A DNA stretch of 44,502 nucleotides from an uncultured Candidatus Poseidoniales archaeon (GTDB lineage Archaea > Thermoplasmatota > Poseidoniia > Poseidoniales > Poseidoniaceae): NCBI GenBank assembly GCA_905182635.1, contig CAJJCM010000019.1, forward strand, positions 1-44,502. The letters are read 5' to 3'. A program made the translations under genes and the position numbers. Positions 29,123-44,502 of the stretch are shown here, piece by piece. Below the pieces are notes generated by a model, which ran no database searches, was not told the origin of the DNA, and saw only the letters and a program-made list of their open reading frames with translations. Position 1 is the stretch's first letter, and every line of letters begins with the position of its first letter.

Positions 29123-30289
29123 ATGCCGGGGCCAAAATCATTGACGTTAGTTGGAGAGGGAAACAAAGGTTCCCGTATCCACGATCTGGTTAAAGCACCT
29201 GCTAATACACCCTGGGCGCTTGCTCGCCAACAATCATGGGATGCTAGTGAGCCTGCAACTGTATACTACACTCCTGAAATGCTCGCGGATGGGACGCCAT
29301 GTAGCGCAGTGACTGTTATCTTGCGCACCAAGGGTTGCCATTGGTGGTGGTCAAGCGGGTGTACTTTCTGCGGATATTTTAACGATACACGTGACGATGT
29401 TACCAATGATGATTTACATGCACAGTGGGCTTATGCAAAGGAGAAATTCAAAGATTTCAAAGATCATGCTATGGTCAAAGTCTACACGAGTGGCTCTTTG
29501 CTTGAAGACCGTGAGATTCCAGTTGAATTTCAAGAAACAGTTTTGAGAGATTGTCATGACCTCGGTAAAGAATTGATTGTAGAAAGCCGATGCGAGCAAT
29601 TGACCGAAGAAAAACTTGCTTGGGCATCACAATTGAATCAAAGTTTTGCAGTAGCGATTGGGCTTGAAGCCTATGACGATGAAGTCCTTCGATTTCATGT
29701 CAACAAAGGTTTCACGACGAAATCGTGGGACCGAGCGGTTGAAAATTTGAAGAAGTTCGATATTCGTGTCAAGACCTACTTGATGTTTAAACCACCTTTC
29801 ATGAGTGAAGCTGATGCATTGAACCATGGCGTAAAATGGATTGAAGACGTGGCGGAAAGAAGCGACGAAATCTCCGTCAATCCAATGAATATTCAGCGAG
29901 GGACGATCATTGACCGTCTTCACAGAAATAGCGAATATCGGCCTCCTTGGCTTTGGTCTTTGGTCGAAATGATTCGTCGTGCTCACCCAACCATCCATCC
30001 GAATGGTGGAAAGAACGGTGATGAAGATCAAGTTTGCCGACTCATCATCCATCCAACTGCAGGAGGAAGAGTTCGAGGTGCCCATAATTGTGGGGCTTGT
30101 GATTCAGTTGTTGTTGCTGCCATTGAACGGTATGCAGTTTCTGGTGATCTTGAAGAATTCAAAGGACTGTCCTGTTCGTGTGAACTTGCATGGAAAGAAG
30201 AGGTTCTTTTGGAACAAGCACTCCCCGTGCCATTGGGAATCTCAAAGCACCGCCGAGGTAATCTTCTCGACAGACTCCGCTCGCCTTAA
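29123..30289 (+). CDS. raSEA: Archaeosine biosynthesis radical SAM protein (RaSEA-type)
   Basis: TVILRTKGCHWWWSSGCTFCGYFNDTRDDV (atypical C-x7-C-x2-C radical SAM motif), VKVYTSGSLLEDREIP, ELIVESRCEQLTEEKL. Confidence 0.85.
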   Translation: MPGPKSLTLVGEGNKGSRIHDLVKAPANTPWALARQQSWDASEPATVYYTPEMLADGTPCSAVTVILRTKGCHWWWSSGCTFCGYFNDTRDDVTNDDLHAQWAYAKEKFKDFKDHAMVKVYTSGSLLEDREIPVEFQETVLRDCHDLGKELIVESRCEQLTEEKLAWASQLNQSFAVAIGLEAYDDEVLRFHVNKGFTTKSWDRAVENLKKFDIRVKTYLMFKPPFMSEADALNHGVKWIEDVAERSDEISVNPMNIQRGTIIDRLHRNSEYRPPWLWSLVEMIRRAHPTIHPNGGKNGDEDQVCRLIIHPTAGGRVRGAHNCGACDSVVVAAIERYAVSGDLEEFKGLSCSCELAWKEEVLLEQALPVPLGISKHRRGNLLDRLRSP

Positions 30290-30396: not shown

Positions 30397-30669
30397 ATGA
30401 CAAATACAACAACTCTACCTGATGTGACCGTTGGAACAGGCGAACCGTCGAGCAGTCGTGTATTCTTGACTCTTTTTTCGGTTGGGCTTCTTGGCATACT
30501 TGCGCTTTTCTCAAATGTTTTCGGGTGGGACAACCTTCCTTTGCTCGGTGAACTTGTCCCTTTGATTGGAAATCTTGGTGGCAGTGGAATTTGGTATTAT
30601 CTTATTGGCATTTTGGTTGGAGTTGGAGCGATTATTGCTTCACTCATAAGCGAGGTCATTGTAGACTAA
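30397..30669 (+). CDS. Small membrane protein (2 predicted TM helices)
   Basis: 90 aa; two hydrophobic segments; 4 nt upstream of and co-oriented with the next ORF. Confidence 0.7.
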   Translation: MTNTTTLPDVTVGTGEPSSSRVFLTLFSVGLLGILALFSNVFGWDNLPLLGELVPLIGNLGGSGIWYYLIGILVGVGAIIASLISEVIVD

Positions 30670-30673
30670 GGAG

Positions 30674-32650
30674 GTGTGGTGTATGGAAACAGTATTTATC
30701 TCTGCAGCACTTTTGCTTGCTTCACTTTTCCTTGTTTCGAACTCTATGGTTCAAGGAATAGGAGGAATGGCAAGTTCTCTTCGACAAGTTGGAATGTTTT
30801 TGTTAAACAAGGCTCCAGCCGGGTTGATCGATCTCTTTAGCGACAAACCAGGAAGCGGTACCAAAACATGGCTACGTTTCGGTATGGCTTGGTTCTTCAT
30901 GGCTTGTCTCGGTATGTTCCTCGGCATCTGGCATCGTTATGACCCAACAGCCCTCAACTCTCTTTCCAGTATTGGCTGGAGTTATGATGATGGTTCAATG
31001 TTAACTGATTACACTGCAATCTTCTTCTCGACTGCATTAAATTATCTCTTAGTTGGTGCAGCACTGGTTGCGATCTCTCGTGCTTCGAAAGGCCGACTTG
31101 CAAGTGAAGCCAGCGCATCGATGGTGGCCGTTCTCCTGACGGTCTCGACCATTGTTGTGCTTCTTCTACCAGCAATATTTTCTTTCATCACTATCGGCAA
31201 CGAAGCAAGTGTTCTCGAAACTTTACAAAACATCTCAATGCTTGTTGTTGGGGCAATGCTTCACTTCGCACTTCTCATCAATGTATTCATCACTTTAGGT
31301 GACCGAGAGCACAACGACATCCCACCAACGACTTGGTTCTTAGTGCTCGCTTTGGTTGCTAAAATCATGGCAATGTTATTCATTTTCTTCGGAGAACTTG
31401 TCGATGCGACACAAACAGTTTGGATGGCAGAACGAGTCTTGACCGGATGGGTTCCTTTGGCTTTGATTTTCGCAGTTGCCTACCACGTCATTCCATTTAC
31501 GACTGGAAAACCAGTCTGGTCTGAATCGATGCAAAAAATAAGTATGTTGTTCCTTTTCATAACAATTCCACCTTTCTTCATTTCTTCAGCAGATGCTGGA
31601 GAATTATTGCAAAATGTTGGTGCTATTCTCATGACGCTCGGACTTCTCCCCTTGCTTGCGGGTTCGTTTAACATGGTTGCAACAGCGGCCTCAAACCCGG
31701 AAAAAATCATCAAGAGCCCTGGTGCTTTTGCAGCAACTGCAGCAATGTTGCTCATCCCAATATATGCCATCGGAGGTTTCTTCACAGGCATGGATACGTT
31801 TGTTGGAATGGATAAACTCGGTTCGATGGCTCATACGGTTGACACAGGCTTCATCTCCACTGTTGGAAGTTTGATGATGCTCGCAGCAATCTTCACATCT
31901 TATCCGCTGGCTGTTGGTAAGAAACTCGCTAAGGCAAGCAACGCTCAACTCGCAGTTTGGCTCACTTTGGTTGGCGGTGTTGCTTCAACCATTGCGGCTC
32001 TGATGGGGGATTTCACTGCTTACGCGGTCACAAACTCAGGTGTCGAAGACGCAGTTGCCTCAACGGAAGGATTCTTCTTGGTCTCTGCCGCTATGTTTTA
32101 CATGGTAACTATGGCAAGTATTCTTGCAGCTTTATCCATGATTCACACAGGACGCCCAAACAATGCTTCCTATTCCGATATGTCTGTCCAGAGTGATATT
32201 GATTCGTACACTTTGGTCGATGGCTCAACAACTATTCGCACCTTGCTTGGCCGAGGTGTTGGCGTCGATACTACCCTTCACATTGGAGAAATTCAAGAAG
32301 ACGAAGGTGGCTCTTCAATCATTCAAGTTTCAACTCAACTCCACAATGATGAAGTTACAGAATTCCCAGTTCCTGAAGAACTGGTCATGCTTGCTCAATT
32401 CTTGAAGCAGACGAAACAATCAATTTTCGAATTTTTCAATACCATTGATTTGGATGGCTCAGGCGAAATTGATGGATATGAATTCCAACAAGCATTAGCA
32501 AAATCAAACATTGCAAACCTTCCACCTTGGGAAATGAGCCGATTAGTTTCAGCAGTTGACCTTGATGGCGATGGCCGAATTAATCTCCCGGAGTTGGATA
32601 TTATGCTGGCTAAGATTCGAACGGAAATCCTTGAATCGGAAGAAGAGTGA
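30674..32650 (+). CDS. Polytopic membrane protein resembling degenerate heme-copper oxidase subunit I, with C-terminal EF-hand pair
   Basis: Many TM helices; GWVPLALIFAVAYHVIPFTTGKPVWSESMQKISMLFLF resembles cbb3/NorB subunit I; EF-hands DLDGSGEIDGYE and DLDGDGRINLPE; likely start ATG at MET in METVFISA. Confidence 0.7.
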   Translation: MWCMETVFISAALLLASLFLVSNSMVQGIGGMASSLRQVGMFLLNKAPAGLIDLFSDKPGSGTKTWLRFGMAWFFMACLGMFLGIWHRYDPTALNSLSSIGWSYDDGSMLTDYTAIFFSTALNYLLVGAALVAISRASKGRLASEASASMVAVLLTVSTIVVLLLPAIFSFITIGNEASVLETLQNISMLVVGAMLHFALLINVFITLGDREHNDIPPTTWFLVLALVAKIMAMLFIFFGELVDATQTVWMAERVLTGWVPLALIFAVAYHVIPFTTGKPVWSESMQKISMLFLFITIPPFFISSADAGELLQNVGAILMTLGLLPLLAGSFNMVATAASNPEKIIKSPGAFAATAAMLLIPIYAIGGFFTGMDTFVGMDKLGSMAHTVDTGFISTVGSLMMLAAIFTSYPLAVGKKLAKASNAQLAVWLTLVGGVASTIAALMGDFTAYAVTNSGVEDAVASTEGFFLVSAAMFYMVTMASILAALSMIHTGRPNNASYSDMSVQSDIDSYTLVDGSTTIRTLLGRGVGVDTTLHIGEIQEDEGGSSIIQVSTQLHNDEVTEFPVPEELVMLAQFLKQTKQSIFEFFNTIDLDGSGEIDGYEFQQALAKSNIANLPPWEMSRLVSAVDLDGDGRINLPELDIMLAKIRTEILESEEE

Positions 32651-32674: not shown

Positions 32675-33958
32675 GTGAAAATCGGATTGGTCGGTAAACC
32701 TAATGTCGGCAAATCTACCTTTTTTAGTGCAGCTACTTTAGCAAAAGTGGATATTGCAAATTATCCTTTTTGTACCATTGAACCGAACGTCGGTGTCGCT
32801 TTTGTAGCAGCCCGAATTCATTGCCCTTGCAAAGACATCCGTCAACGGCTGGAGGCCGAAGGACGAATTGAAGCCGTTACTGAGAGTGACCCACGCCAAG
32901 GAAGTTTATGTGAGCCGAGAACAGGCTCCTGTGTCGCACACCGCCGACTTGTGCCCTGCTTTTTGGTTGACATCGCAGGGCTTGTCCCTGGGGCCAGCGA
33001 AGGCAGAGGAAGGGGAAACGCTTTCCTTGCAGATTTGGCAAATTGTGATGCCCTTATCCAAGTCGTTGATGCAGCGGGAACTACTGATATTGAAGGAAAC
33101 CCTCAAGGTGCAAATCAGAGTAAAGAGATTGCTCAACAGCGCATCGGTGAAGAAATTGATTTTCTCGGAAGAGAATTAGATGCTTGGATTGCAGGATTAT
33201 TGAACGATGGTTGGATACGGGGCGTTCGTCGAGTCCAAGCGGAGGGAGAGAAAGGCTTGGTCGGCTATATACATGAGCAATTAACAGGACTTGGAGCCAC
33301 TTCACAATTGATAGCAATTTCTTTTGAAGCATTCAAAAGTGACCAAGACTCACTTGGAAGTCCCTGGGAATGGGATCAGCAGACGATTACAGCACTCGCC
33401 GTCCATGTCAGAACCGCACTGTTCCCAATTCATATTGCTGCAAATAAGTTCGATATTGCACCATCAGGAGTTCTTCAAGGCATAACCGCAAACGGTAGCC
33501 TCATGCCCTGTATGGCAGATGTGGAATTAGGCCTTCGCCGTGCCGCTGCTGCTGAATTAATCTCTTATATTCCTGGTCAAAATACATTTGAATTTACCAA
33601 TCAAGGCTCTCTTTCTGAACCTCAAATCAATGCATTGAATCACATGCTTGAACGCCTTTCAACCAACAATGGTACGGGCGTGTCAACGCTCCTCGACACG
33701 GTCTTATTTGACGAACTTGACCATATAGTCGTTTATCCAGTTCAAGACGAATCTCATTGGACAGATGGTGATGGAAAGATATTGCCAGATGCATTTGTGG
33801 TTCCTTCTGGAATTCAAGCCAAATTATTGGCATACAAAGTCCACAGCGATCTTGGTGATGGTTTTATTCGAGGCGTGGATGGAAGAACTCGGCGTGTTGT
33901 TGGAGCAGAGCACGAAATGAGTGACGGAGACGTCCTTAAAATTCACGCAAAATCGTAA
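32675..33958 (+). CDS. Archaeal YchF/Obg-type GTP-binding protein with TGS domain
   Basis: LVGKPNVGKSTFFSAAT (G1), FLVDIAGLVPGASEGRGRGNAFL (G3), HIAANKFD, C-terminal TGS DGDVLKIHAKS, cysteine-rich insert CPCKDI... Confidence 0.92.
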   Translation: MKIGLVGKPNVGKSTFFSAATLAKVDIANYPFCTIEPNVGVAFVAARIHCPCKDIRQRLEAEGRIEAVTESDPRQGSLCEPRTGSCVAHRRLVPCFLVDIAGLVPGASEGRGRGNAFLADLANCDALIQVVDAAGTTDIEGNPQGANQSKEIAQQRIGEEIDFLGRELDAWIAGLLNDGWIRGVRRVQAEGEKGLVGYIHEQLTGLGATSQLIAISFEAFKSDQDSLGSPWEWDQQTITALAVHVRTALFPIHIAANKFDIAPSGVLQGITANGSLMPCMADVELGLRRAAAAELISYIPGQNTFEFTNQGSLSEPQINALNHMLERLSTNNGTGVSTLLDTVLFDELDHIVVYPVQDESHWTDGDGKILPDAFVVPSGIQAKLLAYKVHSDLGDGFIRGVDGRTRRVVGAEHEMSDGDVLKIHAKS

Positions 33959-37414: not shown

Positions 37415-40400
37415 TCAAAGCAAGTCATCCAAGAATGATGTATCAATGCTCGCTTGAGGGAGTTGTGGGGAAGTTGACCCGGTAAGATCGTTCAACAATG
37501 CATTGTTCTGCGTAGGTTGCATGACCGGCTGTTGGGATTGATACACAGGTCGCCCATAGTTGTCCTGATTCTCAATCCGTTGCGCTGCAGCATAGACATC
37601 ATTGCCTTGACTTTGCTCGATGTTTGGTACTGTCTTGCTTTCCATTGGAGGGGGGGCAGGGACGCCGACTGTACCCCAGCCATCGTCTTGAATGCCCCAA
37701 GTTGCTTCTTGTAATTCGATTGTTTGGTTACGGTTACGTTGTCCTCCACGTGAGCGGACAATAGCAACCAGTAAGAGAAGTGCAACGACCAACAGTCCTG
37801 CTGCCAGTATGTTCGGCGTAGTGAGAAGGGACGAGAAATCGTTTTCTTTGTTCGAATCTTGCCCATCATTTCCATTTGTGTTCTCTTTACCAAAGACATC
37901 GAGCATAACCGCATCGACTTCAGCTCTTTCAAAGAAGTCATCAAACGGTGTTACTGCGATATACCAAGCAGATGTATTGACCAGTGGGTCGTAATTGTTC
38001 GGTGTGATGAGGAACGAATTCGATGCCTTTACTTCTGCTACAAAATCAGCTTCAGAATTTGAAGAGAAATCAGTATTGGAGATGTAAACACGGTAGCCAC
38101 GGACGCTCGAGTCTGATGAATGTCCCCATTCCACCAAAATGTTTGTCTCAGAATTCCACGTCAGAACAATATCTTCAATCTCGTCGAGGTATCCACCCAA
38201 GTCATCAATTCCATCGTCAACTGATTGAGCCGAAACACTCACTAAATCAATTTCTTGAGCATTTCCAGCGGTATCTCTGACGACGACAACCACCCAGATT
38301 TCTTGTCCAGCAATCACCGGTGTATCCCCCGCAACAATCTCAATGGTTAGTGGAAGTTGAGGGAGTCGAGAGAGAATGGTAACCGGTGTAGAAGGTCCTG
38401 TGCTCCCCATACCTACCGCATCGAATGCCCATGTTGCAGCATAGACTTCGTATGTTGCAACATCGCTTTCGTCACTCAACTCAAAGTCGAGCAGTAAAGC
38501 ACTACCGTCATCATTCGGCCGGTCATAAAGTTCGATGGTTTCGAGTGGTGCAGGTGCGGTCACATCTTGCAGGTTGTTGATTGGCGTGACGGTTGCTTGT
38601 GGTAGGTCTGTGAGGTAGACATTTCCTGCAAGGTCATGAACGGTCACAACAACATAGAGTTCAATATCGGGTTTGATGAATTGCGGTAGAGAATCAACGA
38701 TTGAATCACCACCATACAATGCTGTTGAAATCGATAATTCAATAGGATTGTAATCTTCATCAATCCATTGTTTGTTAATCTTCAAACATGCGCATTGCGT
38801 TTCATCATCGCCAAAGGCAGCCCAAGCAGCCGAAAGGTCCGAGATTGGTTGGTCGGCAGCCCAGACGATGTAATACGAGAAATCATCAGCATCAGAAATT
38901 GACCAAATGACATCGATTGCAGTTCCGTCATCATCAGGATGGTCAAAGGCGTTGACAGTGCCAACTCGGTCAGGAGCTATACTTCCAGCAGTGTTGCGCA
39001 TCGGGATGACCGATAAAAGATCAACATCTTCCAAATTAACGTTCAACCAATCATCATAGGCTACAACGCCGACGTAGTACATCTGCCCATCTTGGAGGGC
39101 TACACCATCAAAACTTGTGACGACGGTCGAGGTCTCAGAACAATCGTCAATGATTTTGGCCTGCGTGAATCCATAATCTGAAAGCGGCTGCCCATTGGAT
39201 GAAAGTTGCGTATCAGCATCTTCCCAGATTCGCATGAAGATGGCATAGAAGGTGCAGTCTTCTGCAGGATTAACATCCCATGAAACGGTGATTCTTCCAC
39301 CGTCATCTTCTGGAGTATCGATGGCCGCAACATTTTCCATTTTCGGAGGAGCGGTGTTATCGTTCAATCCGCCTGTTGGGACGACTGGTCCAATGATGAG
39401 TGGATTCATCAAATCTTCTTGGCCTGATTCATCGGCACATGTGAGGGCAAGCCAGTATGGCTGACCGGCATCAAGTGACAAGACTGTTGTGTTTCCTTCT
39501 GTCCTCATGACTTCAGCTTCTGGTGTCAATCCCAAAACATCAGTCATTGAATTTGTAGAGGCATAGATAATGGTACTTGCCAAATCGATAGAAGTGCAGC
39601 GAGCCCATTCAACTTCCAGGTCACCATCAGCACCACCATCATGAGGTCCAGCATTCGCCCATATTGGTGATAGCGGGATTTCATTGGTCGGAGAAGCAGG
39701 ACCCATGACTGGGGATGGAGTACCCAGATGTCCATCGTCGTATTCGACAACAACGACAGCGTAGTATTCTGTACCATCAACCAATGGAACTCCATTGGCT
39801 GTTGTGACTTCACTTGAGAGTCGACTGTGCAATGAGATTGTTTTGTCTATGGCTCGTCCAGATAGGTCAGCAGCGGTGAGGGTTAAGCCACCGGTCGTAA
39901 CGAAAGGCCCTTCGTTGACATAGACCAAATACCGAGCGAAGTTCTCATCATGAATAAGACTCCAATCAGATAATAATGCTCCTCCTCCATCATCAGGTCG
40001 GTCAATGAGGTCGGTCATTGTAATCGGTGTTTCAGTTCGAACATAATCATAGATGAGGCGAACTTGTAACGAACCATTTGAAGGAGAACGTAGAGTCATT
40101 TGCAGGAATTGCGTTCCATTGATAATCATACCATTGTCAACGGCAAATTGCATTGTAGTTTCAAAACCAGGAGTATTTGCAAGTTCAATTGTAGCATTAT
40201 ATTTGAGGCTCTTGGATTGAGCCCATGTCGCTGCATTATTGACTGGAGAAGTAAAGGCCAATGGAACGGCTTGGAACAATATGCCATTGGTTCCAACAAC
40301 CCCTTGAGTTGAGTCGAGGGCAACCGTTGAAGTGAGGTCTGCGAGGGTAATACTCATGCCGGGGTGAGTCCGATCAGTGATGTCTTTGGTCACCAAATTG

Positions 40401-43400
40401 AATCCAACGTTCAAGGGGTCTGCATATCGAATCGATACGCGTTCAAGTTCGGTATATTGCGGGTTATTCTCGTAGCCATATAGCCCCTCACCATCTGTAG
40501 TGAGCCAAATATAATCTGAAGAAATTGTTCCACCGGTGAGTGATGGCATTGAAATCATCTTGAGGTTTTGATGTGAACTTGTTCGGGCTTCAACGATTGA
40601 AACACCGTTTCCTCCAAACACTAGAATGTGGTCCCCATCACTGACCATTTTTTGTACAGGCCAACCAAAGATTTGGTAGGATGGGATTCCATTTTCAAAG
40701 AAAGTGGATGTACTGTTCCAGTGCGTCATTGGTCCAATGTCTGTAGCGATGTGAACGCCCCAGAAATCACTGGCTAAAGCATCGATGTTGTTGGAAGGTA
40801 ATTGGTCAAACTCATGTCCAATAATTGTACCTGTGGTCAAACCAAGCGTGGTAACAGCAGGCCGTTCGCTCCCAGCACCATCGTGTCCAATGAACAGTGT
40901 AGTTTCAGCACCAGTTGTTGACGGCGTATAGGAAGTAAGTGACTTGGTGGAAGTCCCCATGAGGCCAGAGGCAGAGGTATAGAGGGTCGTAGCATTGGTT
41001 GTAATATTCATTCGAATTAAACCAGCAGTTGTGGCCATCCAGAGATAATTTCCTTCGACAAGAACGTCTTCAACAACATTGGTAGGGAGTCCGTCCGAAG
41101 TAGTCAGTGGATTAATCCAGTCCGAGGCAGCATAATCCCAACGACCGACTCCACCGTTGGTGGCAATGTAGAGAATATCGGTCGTTGCAGCGAAATTATT
41201 GATTGCGTTTGATGGTAATCCACCGATCAGTTTACCATTGCCGTAGCCAGTCTGAAGATCATACAATTGAACGCCAGGTGCTGAACCACCACTGCCCATC
41301 AGCCCGAGAACTAAGGTAGTGCCAACTCGAACCATTCCATCGAGGTTATTGTGCAAACCACCATTCAATCGTGTGACGATTCCAGTGGTCGTATCAAGTT
41401 TGTAAAGGCCAGTTGGTGAGGTTGTAATGTAAAGGTCGTTTCCAATAAGTTCAGTATCTTGGGCTTTACTATTTGCAGTCATAGTCCACCCATTTTGCCA
41501 TAGAATTGTCCCATCAGTTTGGCGTTCACCTTGCAATAAACCTGCTCCGCTTGATTGACCAAACCCTTGATTCGAACCTATGGTTGTAATCCACAAATGT
41601 GTACTGTTGCCAGTCATTGTTGTGACTTGCCCACTTACCAAACCTGGTAGCGTAGCAATCGTATTTTGTCCGAGAGGGCTGATGGTTTCGACCTTACTAA
41701 ATCCAGATGAACCACCAGCTTGTCCAACCAACCATTCGCTTCCGAGCCATTGGAATGAAGTGACTGAAGAGCCTGCGCCATTGACACTGGCTTGAGCATT
41801 CGAATTTCCAGATGTTGCGATGAGGGATAATCCTCCACCGATGATGTTGTTGCCCGATGTACCGATGCCATGTCCAAGAACAAGACCGCCGTTCGCGTAT
41901 CCAATTGAATCCCACCAAACGCGATCGCTTGGTAAGCCATTGGTCGCGGAGGTGATTGGTGTAATCCAAGCACTGGTCGAGTAACTGTATTTCTTAATAT
42001 CTGCTTCATCTTCGTAAAAAGCGATGTAAAGCGTATCGGTTGTATCACAGGCTACGCCTGAGACTTCGCCATAGTTTTCGTTCCAGTCAGCGCGAGTGAA
42101 TGAACCAATCATTGTGCTATTGGCAAGGTCTAAGCGAGCGACACCGCCGTTATTTGCATAAATTCCAATATGTAATACGCCGCCACACATAGCCATTGAA
42201 ATCGGGTAACCGTTTGGTGTACCGCTTTGTCCCAAATCGTATTGAGTCCAAGCGCTACCATCCCAATGAGAAACAGCACCGCCTTGGAATTGGCCAAAGC
42301 CACTGACATCTCCGCCACCGACAACAAGGTCAGTGCCATTCGTCCATAACTCATAGATATTGCTTCCAGCATTGGTTGGTAAACCAGAACCTTCTTCCCA
42401 TGTAGTGAGCCATTGGTTGCTGGATTCATTGTATCGAGCAATACCATCTTCAGTAGCGAATAAGACTTCACCGTTGAATTCGACAATTTCTCGAATTGGG
42501 AACTCAAAGTCATCGCTGTCCCATGTACCAATGGTTGTACCATTCGGTGCAATCAGTTCAAGATTACTTTCGCCCCAAGAAATCCAGAGGTTTCCAGTCG
42601 TTGATTCGTATGCAGTGACTCGGTCAACTTGCCCGATTGGTAGGATGCTTTGGCCCCAAGAACCGTTGCTGATATTCCATTGAGCAATACCTCCTGAACC
42701 ATCTGCCTGCCACCAGTTTGGTGAAGAAACACTCGCCATCAATATACCGTCGATAATACTGAGGCCATTGACATCACCGTTGTTTTCATCAACTTGTGCT
42801 CCAGCATCAAGTGAAGAAAGTGCGGTGTAATTTTGGGCATCAAACCGATAAATATTATCGCTGCTGGTGCCATCGTGGTAATACATCACATTTCCATCGA
42901 GAATCATATCCAATGGATCGCCGTTTCCGGCAAAGAGAGAACTTGACTTTTCAATATCATAGACTTCAGCACCGGTCGTAGCGTTGAGAAGTTGGAAGCC
43001 ATCAGAACCGCCAATCCAAATGTTGTTTGGGTCCAAATCAACAGAAAGTGCAGTCGCATCTTCATTACCGTCATCTAAGAAATTATCTTCGGTCCAGAGA
43101 GTCAACCACTCGTTTTGCAGCATATCGTATCGCGCCACACCAATTCCGTCGAATCCAATGAAGGCAGTATCTCCAATGACGACAACAGGGGCGTTATTTG
43201 TCTGTTCACCAGCCTCCCAATCCCCTACGACTTCGTAAGGAGATGCGGTGATGATGCCAACTCCAGAGGTAGTCCCTGCAAAGATGTAGCCGTAACTATC
43301 AGCTTCAACAGAATACGCTGCCCAATTTGGCATACCATCTTGGACATTCAGACAATCAGGGTTGGTTGAAGAGATTTGACCTGTTGACCATGCACAGACG

Positions 43401-44502
43401 CCGATATTTGTTGCAGCGTATACAGTGCCTCCTGACACAGTGAAATCAAAGTATTGTTGAGGGCGAGTGTTCCAAGAACTGCCGGTTTGGAATGATGTAG
43501 AACTTGAGCCGTCCCACTCGATTGCTCCCCCACTGGTTCCGATGTAGAGATTGCTTCCATCGGCTTCCAACGCATAGATATTATCGTTTGGAAGCACTTC
43601 AGTTGCTGAGCCTTGACCTCCACCATTTTGTCCATTCGTTTCGGTCAATGGAAGAAGCAATTCACCTGTAGAAAGGTCCTTTCGAGCGACTCCATATCCT
43701 GGAATCCCAAAGTAAAGAATGTCGCCGGTAACGGCCACAGGGACATTATTTGCACCGTTCACGCCAGTAGAAATCCATGGGGTTTGCCATGAACCGTTTG
43801 ACAGGTCATAGCGAAGAACACCGTTCCCATCTGTTGCGAGATGAACCGTATTGCTAAACAGCGTAAGGTCGACAGCAGCAGCATCATATTGAGGCGCAGA
43901 AACAGCAACGGCCCCAGAGAGGTCGATCAAAATCATTTGACCGAGGCCGGTGATTCCAACGGCAGTTGAACCATCAGAATCAACTCGAATGATACTGTCA
44001 TCATTCAAATCCGTGTTTGAAGAATCCCATGTTTGCAAGAGTGTTCCGTTGTTGTGCATTTTATGCATTCCACTTTCTGAAGCGATGAATACATGCGAGC
44101 CATCGTTCATCAAATGATTGACCGTCGTACCAAGGTATACGGGTTGGAGCCAGCGAGATGCTTGGGTATCGAAACGATTCATCCAATCATCAGCGGCAAC
44201 AAAGACAACGCCATTCAATTCAGTAGCGTCTTGCATACTGGAAGAAGTTGGACCACTTCCAATCAGCACTGTTCCAGTTTGAAGTGGTGTTGAGCCGGGA
44301 CTTAATTCAGCAAACGAGCCAAACCCATTCCCGAGCAACAACATCTCTGACGCTGGTGCACGTGAACCAAGAGCTGGCCATACAATGAGGTCTTGACCAT
44401 CTCCAGTTAATCCAAACGCCGAAATCTGTTGAGTGCCTGAAAAGACACCTACTGCGGTATCGTATTCATGAAGAGTATCGCCACTTAGAATGAACAAATC
44501 AG
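37415..44502 (-). CDS. Giant secreted/cell-surface protein: multiple regulator-type beta-propeller repeats, FN3-like repeats, single TM and Gln/Pro-rich tail; 5' end truncated by window
   Basis: Open to the window edge; recurrent LPTNxVxxVxxxGxxLWxATxxGLxR-type units; six FN3-like units with D-x-P-x-D-D-G; TM ILAAGLLVVALLLLVAIV then RSRGGQRNRN. Confidence 0.85.
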   Translation of the reverse strand, partial: DLFILSGDTLHEYDTAVGVFSGTQQISAFGLTGDGQDLIVWPALGSRAPASEMLLLGNGFGSFAELSPGSTPLQTGTVLIGSGPTSSSMQDATELNGVVFVAADDWMNRFDTQASRWLQPVYLGTTVNHLMNDGSHVFIASESGMHKMHNNGTLLQTWDSSNTDLNDDSIIRVDSDGSTAVGITGLGQMILIDLSGAVAVSAPQYDAAAVDLTLFSNTVHLATDGNGVLRYDLSNGSWQTPWISTGVNGANNVPVAVTGDILYFGIPGYGVARKDLSTGELLLPLTETNGQNGGGQGSATEVLPNDNIYALEADGSNLYIGTSGGAIEWDGSSSTSFQTGSSWNTRPQQYFDFTVSGGTVYAATNIGVCAWSTGQISSTNPDCLNVQDGMPNWAAYSVEADSYGYIFAGTTSGVGIITASPYEVVGDWEAGEQTNNAPVVVIGDTAFIGFDGIGVARYDMLQNEWLTLWTEDNFLDDGNEDATALSVDLDPNNIWIGGSDGFQLLNATTGAEVYDIEKSSSLFAGNGDPLDMILDGNVMYYHDGTSSDNIYRFDAQNYTALSSLDAGAQVDENNGDVNGLSIIDGILMASVSSPNWWQADGSGGIAQWNISNGSWGQSILPIGQVDRVTAYESTTGNLWISWGESNLELIAPNGTTIGTWDSDDFEFPIREIVEFNGEVLFATEDGIARYNESSNQWLTTWEEGSGLPTNAGSNIYELWTNGTDLVVGGGDVSGFGQFQGGAVSHWDGSAWTQYDLGQSGTPNGYPISMAMCGGVLHIGIYANNGGVARLDLANSTMIGSFTRADWNENYGEVSGVACDTTDTLYIAFYEDEADIKKYSYSTSAWITPITSATNGLPSDRVWWDSIGYANGGLVLGHGIGTSGNNIIGGGLSLIATSGNSNAQASVNGAGSSVTSFQWLGSEWLVGQAGGSSGFSKVETISPLGQNTIATLPGLVSGQVTTMTGNSTHLWITTIGSNQGFGQSSGAGLLQGERQTDGTILWQNGWTMTANSKAQDTELIGNDLYITTSPTGLYKLDTTTGIVTRLNGGLHNNLDGMVRVGTTLVLGLMGSGGSAPGVQLYDLQTGYGNGKLIGGLPSNAINNFAATTDILYIATNGGVGRWDYAASDWINPLTTSDGLPTNVVEDVLVEGNYLWMATTAGLIRMNITTNATTLYTSASGLMGTSTKSLTSYTPSTTGAETTLFIGHDGAGSERPAVTTLGLTTGTIIGHEFDQLPSNNIDALASDFWGVHIATDIGPMTHWNSTSTFFENGIPSYQIFGWPVQKMVSDGDHILVFGGNGVSIVEARTSSHQNLKMISMPSLTGGTISSDYIWLTTDGEGLYGYENNPQYTELERVSIRYADPLNVGFNLVTKDITDRTHPGMSITLADLTSTVALDSTQGVVGTNGILFQAVPLAFTSPVNNAATWAQSKSLKYNATIELANTPGFETTMQFAVDNGMIINGTQFLQMTLRSPSNGSLQVRLIYDYVRTETPITMTDLIDRPDDGGGALLSDWSLIHDENFARYLVYVNEGPFVTTGGLTLTAADLSGRAIDKTISLHSRLSSEVTTANGVPLVDGTEYYAVVVVEYDDGHLGTPSPVMGPASPTNEIPLSPIWANAGPHDGGADGDLEVEWARCTSIDLASTIIYASTNSMTDVLGLTPEAEVMRTEGNTTVLSLDAGQPYWLALTCADESGQEDLMNPLIIGPVVPTGGLNDNTAPPKMENVAAIDTPEDDGGRITVSWDVNPAEDCTFYAIFMRIWEDADTQLSSNGQPLSDYGFTQAKIIDDCSETSTVVTSFDGVALQDGQMYYVGVVAYDDWLNVNLEDVDLLSVIPMRNTAGSIAPDRVGTVNAFDHPDDDGTAIDVIWSISDADDFSYYIVWAADQPISDLSAAWAAFGDDETQCACLKINKQWIDEDYNPIELSISTALYGGDSIVDSLPQFIKPDIELYVVVTVHDLAGNVYLTDLPQATVTPINNLQDVTAPAPLETIELYDRPNDDGSALLLDFELSDESDVATYEVYAATWAFDAVGMGSTGPSTPVTILSRLPQLPLTIEIVAGDTPVIAGQEIWVVVVVRDTAGNAQEIDLVSVSAQSVDDGIDDLGGYLDEIEDIVLTWNSETNILVEWGHSSDSSVRGYRVYISNTDFSSNSEADFVAEVKASNSFLITPNNYDPLVNTSAWYIAVTPFDDFFERAEVDAVMLDVFGKENTNGNDGQDSNKENDFSSLLTTPNILAAGLLVVALLLLVAIVRSRGGQRNRNQTIELQEATWGIQDDGWGTVGVPAPPPMESKTVPNIEQSQGNDVYAAAQRIENQDNYGRPVYQSQQPVMQPTQNNALLNDLTGSTSPQLPQASIDTSFLDDLL

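Follow-up and report, generated by a model that had tools for sequence, protein, structure and literature searches.

A metal site is what defines subunit I of heme-copper oxidases (HCO). What, then, is the membrane protein encoded by a Poseidoniales archaeon within the 44,502-nucleotide stretch of DNA analysed here (the window), which a sequence-only reading took for a relative of that subunit lacking metal ligands and fused to EF-hands? The open reading frame at 30674-32650 and all segments quoted in that reading are present in the window. The likely start of the gene is the ATG at 30683, not the GTG at 30674, because GGAGGTG lies 6 nt upstream and the match to relatives begins at this ATG, with a stop codon farther upstream. 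The product (30683..32650, plus strand, as are all features of the locus given below) has 655 amino acids. AlphaFold secondary structure and a positive-inside count place an extra N-terminal transmembrane (TM) helix at residues 2-24 (30686..30754), outside a cbb3-like 12-TM core at residues 58-489 (30854..32149) that is delimited by the model, Foldseek and profile comparison. After the last TM helix, the alignment of relatives and the model place a short soluble conserved segment, TTIRxLLxxGxGxDT (32216..32272), which is common to both Poseidoniales families and has low model confidence, and the C-terminal part carries a pair of EF-hands.

Pfam, NCBIfam and the PDB, searched with single sequences or single profiles, returned only the EF-hands and nothing in the membrane part, and the protein did not reach the PF00115 gathering score in Pfam; we do not read such failures as absence of homology. 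An alignment of 35 relatives was used for an AlphaFold model of the window protein, with pLDDT of about 90 across much of the membrane part. In a Foldseek comparison of this model with the PDB, the top 48 rows were all HCO subunit I, headed by CcoN of cbb3 oxidases (best match 9g6b_A, E 5e-9, TM-score 0.74; 3mk7_D, TM-score 0.76) and followed by cNOR and ba3, then bo3/aa3. We also modelled a sister-family protein that lacks EF-hands and is 24-27% identical to the Poseidoniaceae rows; this model (pTM 0.84) again matched cbb3 first (E 1.6e-12). TM-scores of the two models against CcoN were 0.74-0.77, the models being not fully independent, as their alignments of 23-35 sequences overlap. Using hhalign, the membrane part matched a small cbb3-like profile of six sequences with a probability of 98.2% and E 3.6e-14, compared with E 0.37 for the reversed target, 0.27 for the reversed template, 0.17 for NuoL, 0.42 for NuoM and 0.64 for AtpI; the positive control, cbb3 against aa3, gave E 8e-20. 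Models of two divergent members and a controlled profile comparison thus agree with the cbb3/NorB-like shape proposed from the sequence, and the structural similarity to PF00115-type subunit I on which that proposal hung was found. It is well supported that the protein keeps the HCO fold and descends from the HCO superfamily. As part of our best explanation, it is very probably a redox-dead descendant of a C-type (cbb3-like) subunit I.

The likeness to CcoN (3mk7, 9g6b, 9g83) covers the 12-TM fold, with a TM-score of about 0.75 on CcoN length alongside the profile match, and the order of the structural motifs GRPVYS / GKPVWS and P-x6-N-x3-T. Unlike CcoN, the protein lacks all six His ligands, the cross-linked Tyr and ccoO/ccoP neighbours, and has the additional N-terminal helix and C-terminal EF-hands. 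NorB, the cytochrome c-dependent nitric oxide reductase (3o0r, 4xyd), is the next-best fold match after cbb3, but the window protein has neither heme nor FeB ligands. A search for canonical cox genes elsewhere, suggested by the earlier reading, found one separate A-type cox1 on another contig of the same genome (G000:C39, L001). This cox1 scores 465 bits to PF00115 and has the ligand motifs, and belongs with the window protein in one superfamily by fold only. Profile comparison of the membrane part with an A-type (aa3) cox1 set was not significant (E 0.16), so a direct tie to the genome's own cox1 is not detectable.

Alignment to CcoN found none of the six heme and CuB histidines (0/6) in the window protein. 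The His of TM2 that binds low-spin heme aligns with Y110, the CuB ligand His207 with R251 (E250/R251 in TM6, 31430..31435), Tyr251 with P296 and His257 with S302, the region of residues 296-302 (31568..31588) having no His at all. His258 and the two TM10 ligands align to gaps, and the window protein has no His at those positions; a gap-free count from the conserved proline after TM10 again put residues other than His at the ligand positions. The sequence-only reading had pointed to MAERV and SSADAG in place of the CuB His and the HH pair and to SMAHTVDTGF in the H-x-H heme region. These segments (WMAERVLTGW, 31421-31450; SSADAG, 31583-31600; and the TM10 region, 31823..31852, where CcoN has GHVHAG with heme b3/b ligands) hold no ligand His in the profile alignment. 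H383 lies near the TM10 ligand positions but is present only in part of the family. The loss is family-wide with one relic: the TM7 and TM10 ligand positions are gone across relatives, one stray His excepted, and 10 of 35 relatives, in the sister family, have His in the H207 column (QWLLGHMVGG; CcoN WWYGHNAVGF), which supports descent from an active CcoN-like ancestor. Intact heme/CuB histidines, which would have made this an ordinary terminal oxidase, were thus sought at all six positions and not found. The protein does not qualify as a heme-copper oxidase.

The gene is retained throughout the order. One copy each is found in nearly all Poseidoniales genomes of a class-wide sample, a few of them split over contigs; the only sampled genome without it (G030) is a draft that could lack the contig. 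It was found in 0 of 23 sister-order genomes, and elsewhere in the phylum there was a single marginal 58-residue match and nothing convincing. A scan of 85,488 species returned 197 relatives, the best 80 of which are titled Poseidoniales or euryarchaeal MAGs except for one labelled Rhodobiaceae; the matches listed include the MG-II chromosome CM001443.1 and one entry not marked as a MAG. The record labelled Rhodobiaceae bacterium (L238, CALDQY010000302.1) encodes a plainly Poseidoniales protein and is most likely a mis-binned or mislabelled MAG. Viral contigs yielded no relatives, and a PHROGs search nothing relevant. Most of these genomes are MAGs, the window's own being 66.5% complete, and absence from a single genome may be assembly loss. 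The reading frame is intact in dozens of species and pairwise dN is 0.06-0.09 against dS of 0.8-1.4 (dN/dS about 0.06-0.08): the gene is under purifying selection. With a homologous fold, lost catalytic residues and purifying selection, the protein is a pseudoenzyme.

Gene order around the locus is kept in both families: a radical SAM protein (29123..30289), a 90-aa protein with two TM helices (30397..30669), the HCO-like gene and a YchF/YGR210-like GTPase with a TGS domain (32675..33958), the first and last assigned by Pfam. No ccoO/ccoP-like cytochrome c subunits are found among these neighbours. Among these neighbours only the 2-TM protein, directly upstream, is a membrane protein, and both families conserve it; it is therefore the natural partner candidate, and from gene order we infer that the two proteins act together.

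The EF-hand module occupies about 90 residues (32360..32626). The two canonical loops noted in the earlier reading, DLDGSGEIDGYE (32447..32482) and DLDGDGRINLPE (32558..32593), match both the profiles, with scores over Pfam cut-offs (PF13499 pair), and the strict loop pattern of 12 residues with acidic residues at 1, 3 and 12; the closest solved relatives are calmodulins. The module is predicted to bind Ca2+. Unlike a calmodulin lobe, the pair is fused to a membrane protein of respiratory fold, and relatives of it sit in AtpI, NuoL and NuoJ. A survey of related genomes, as the reading had advised, found the pair on the HCO-like protein in every Poseidoniaceae genus sampled and on none of the sister-family proteins. 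The fusion is as unusual as had been supposed: only one family has it, and the same module also turns up as an addition to complex I and ATP synthase subunits.

In the window's own genus (g1), the module is inserted in subunit I of the A-type ATP synthase at the junction of cytoplasmic and membrane domains, aligned copies being 44-64% identical to the window's module; AtpI of the same genome (L032, G000:C50, 660-3030) has the pair before its membrane domain, at 63% identity. AtpI of other genera has a gap at the insertion site. In another genus (g11), a module 57-60% identical is inserted in NuoL of complex I, next to NuoM (L149, L150, L151, L155), and NuoL of the other genera checked is continuous across the site. 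In a third (g14), a split NuoJ carries a more divergent module fused to its second half (L249:1505-2080, L261:2100-2673), in L249 inside the nuo operon. Both loops fit the strict pattern in 52 of 53 HCO-like, 15 of 15 AtpI and 9 of 10 NuoL modules. All hosts scoring at least 70 bits to the module profile are HCO-like, ATP synthase or complex I proteins; these four hosts reach about 80 bits or more, and a tandem second copy in one HCO-like protein scores 74 bits. Other EF-hand proteins, at 67 bits or less, are multi-EF zinc-ribbon, propeller-like or small EF proteins. Presence in all genera of the family suggests that the HCO-like protein was the ancestral host; a tree of the module (90 columns) is too poorly resolved for the direction of transfer.

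Averaged over 35 sequences, K+R counts are 0.9-4.4 in odd loops of the HCO-like protein and 0-0.4 in even loops, an alternation that places the C-terminus and its EF-hands on the positive, cytoplasmic side. The NuoL insert separates TM11 from TM12 and precedes the GFWSKE motif, which we take to belong to TM12 (E. coli K399) from motif matching and established NuoL topology. Published accounts place the TM12b half-channel on the periplasmic side, so the TM11-TM12 loop, and the insert with it, would be cytoplasmic. A periplasmic location of the insert was rejected by this motif-based argument. The topology thus puts the EF module of the HCO-like protein, ATP-synthase subunit I and NuoL on the cytoplasmic side.

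What might such a protein do? The sequence-only reading had envisaged a non-redox, Ca2+-responsive channel, sensor or scaffold. That every redox ligand was lost under strong purifying selection indicates that the scaffold itself is useful, and our best functional clue, that the HCO-like protein shares its module with complex I and ATP synthase, would place it near the respiratory system. We consider it possible, at a little under even confidence, that it acts as a scaffold or regulator subunit of the respiratory chain. The 12-helix scaffold is retained without the heme/CuB site, and the protein and its 2-TM neighbour would probably form a small membrane complex that serves the chain non-catalytically, helping as a scaffold, in assembly or in regulation. 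Binding of Ca2+ by the cytoplasmic EF-hand pair would, in Poseidoniaceae, make the contacts or the activity of respiratory complexes depend on cytosolic Ca2+; ATP-synthase subunit I, NuoL or NuoJ acquired the same module in individual genera. A precedent for a respiratory-chain fold in another role is DAB2 (DabB), a subunit resembling NuoL that is reused outside complex I (PMC13144422); unlike the window protein, whose catalytic site is lost, DabB keeps its proton-transfer residues.

The recurrence of the module suggests Ca2+-dependent contacts or control of respiration. A bolder, joint reading is that cytosolic Ca2+ controls Poseidoniaceae oxidative phosphorylation through a single roving EF-hand module, which the order-wide pseudo-oxidase always carries and which, depending on the lineage, AtpI, NuoL or NuoJ carries too, with the pseudo-oxidase and its 2-TM partner as the coupling hub; this we hold only tentatively and think rather doubtful. 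Because the sister family keeps the same core without EF-hands, the basic function does not need Ca2+. Against a respiratory role, the conserved neighbours apart from the 2-TM gene do not resemble respiratory operons but seem to be unrelated housekeeping genes.

That last point also favours a view in which the EF module is a general structural add-on, found on respiratory subunits through a bias towards membrane proteins, and the HCO-like protein works outside respiration, for instance in membrane assembly or lipid binding. These genomes contain many further EF-hand proteins that show no tie to respiration, so EF-hand use alone is not specific, and family-specific modules with calcium-binding domains have been published for both Poseidoniales families (PMC9258230). 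The add-on view is nonetheless unlikely, given that the four hosts at 70 bits or more are all HCO-like, ATP synthase or complex I proteins and the remaining EF-hand matches stay at or below 67 bits. Zinc-ribbon-like proteins with several EF-hands and hydrophobic segments that are probably membrane-spanning (L033:3778-5947, minus strand; L253, L256, L258, L259) occur in both families, and EF-hand proteins are abundant in Poseidoniales.

HCO cores contain proton channels, as is well established, and the core might keep an H+ or Na+ path that the cytoplasmic EF-hands open and close; the protein would then be an ion channel, leak valve or transporter gated by Ca2+. A Na+-type ATP synthase has been inferred for Poseidoniales, with H+/Na+ coupling described as unclear (Tully 2019, PMC6336850), which would leave room for such a valve. 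The conserved residues point the other way: by the alignment and the AlphaFold helix map, the charges conserved in the family (R34, K43, D50, K61, D87, R133, E142, R208, D371, K413, D443, E455 and D456) lie in loops or helix ends and none deep inside a helix, and the family shows no conservation where CcoN has E323 and Y251. An ion pump or a channel with titratable residues is therefore not favoured, and we regard the channel explanation as quite unlikely.

An atypical heme or metal protein with other ligands, redox active or a gas sensor, could draw on the His of the H207 column and on family-specific histidines (H84 and H268 in one family; positions 86, 129, 173 and 482 in the other). It is improbable, since no His, Cys or Met other than Met1 is conserved across both families in the 35-relative alignment and the TM7 and TM10 ligand positions are gone. 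That the gene is a decaying pseudogene, or resembles an oxidase subunit only by chance, as the missing PF00115 match and the want of sequence matches to oxidases in the PDB might suggest, is refuted for practical purposes by the low dN/dS with intact frames, order-wide conservation and profile and fold matches significant against controls.

An abundant order of ocean archaea (Marine Group II, Poseidoniales) thus keeps a subunit I free of its metal site as a single-copy core gene, and the literature searches made for this analysis found no description of such a protein. Also new here is the presence of the same EF-hand module in AtpI of the window's genus, NuoL of another and, more divergent, NuoJ of a third. 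One module on three other energy-converting subunits in separate genera connects calcium with archaeal respiration directly and in a way that can be tested; for these organisms, H+/Na+ coupling has been described as unclear (PMC6336850). The hosts of the module hint that calcium controls energy metabolism.

The C-termini of the family vary further. Some HCO-like proteins (L015, L102, L034), from part of Poseidoniaceae and one sister-family genus, terminate in a SAP-like domain, an uncommon feature of membrane proteins, and in two (L102 and L104) the C-terminus is extended by a long region whose repeats look like helix-hairpin-helix segments (DDLQAIKGVGPFIEEKLNALGI). Elsewhere in the window, 37415-44497 on the minus strand encodes a large propeller-like protein of 2360 aa with a hydrophobic C-terminal segment, probably located at the cell surface.
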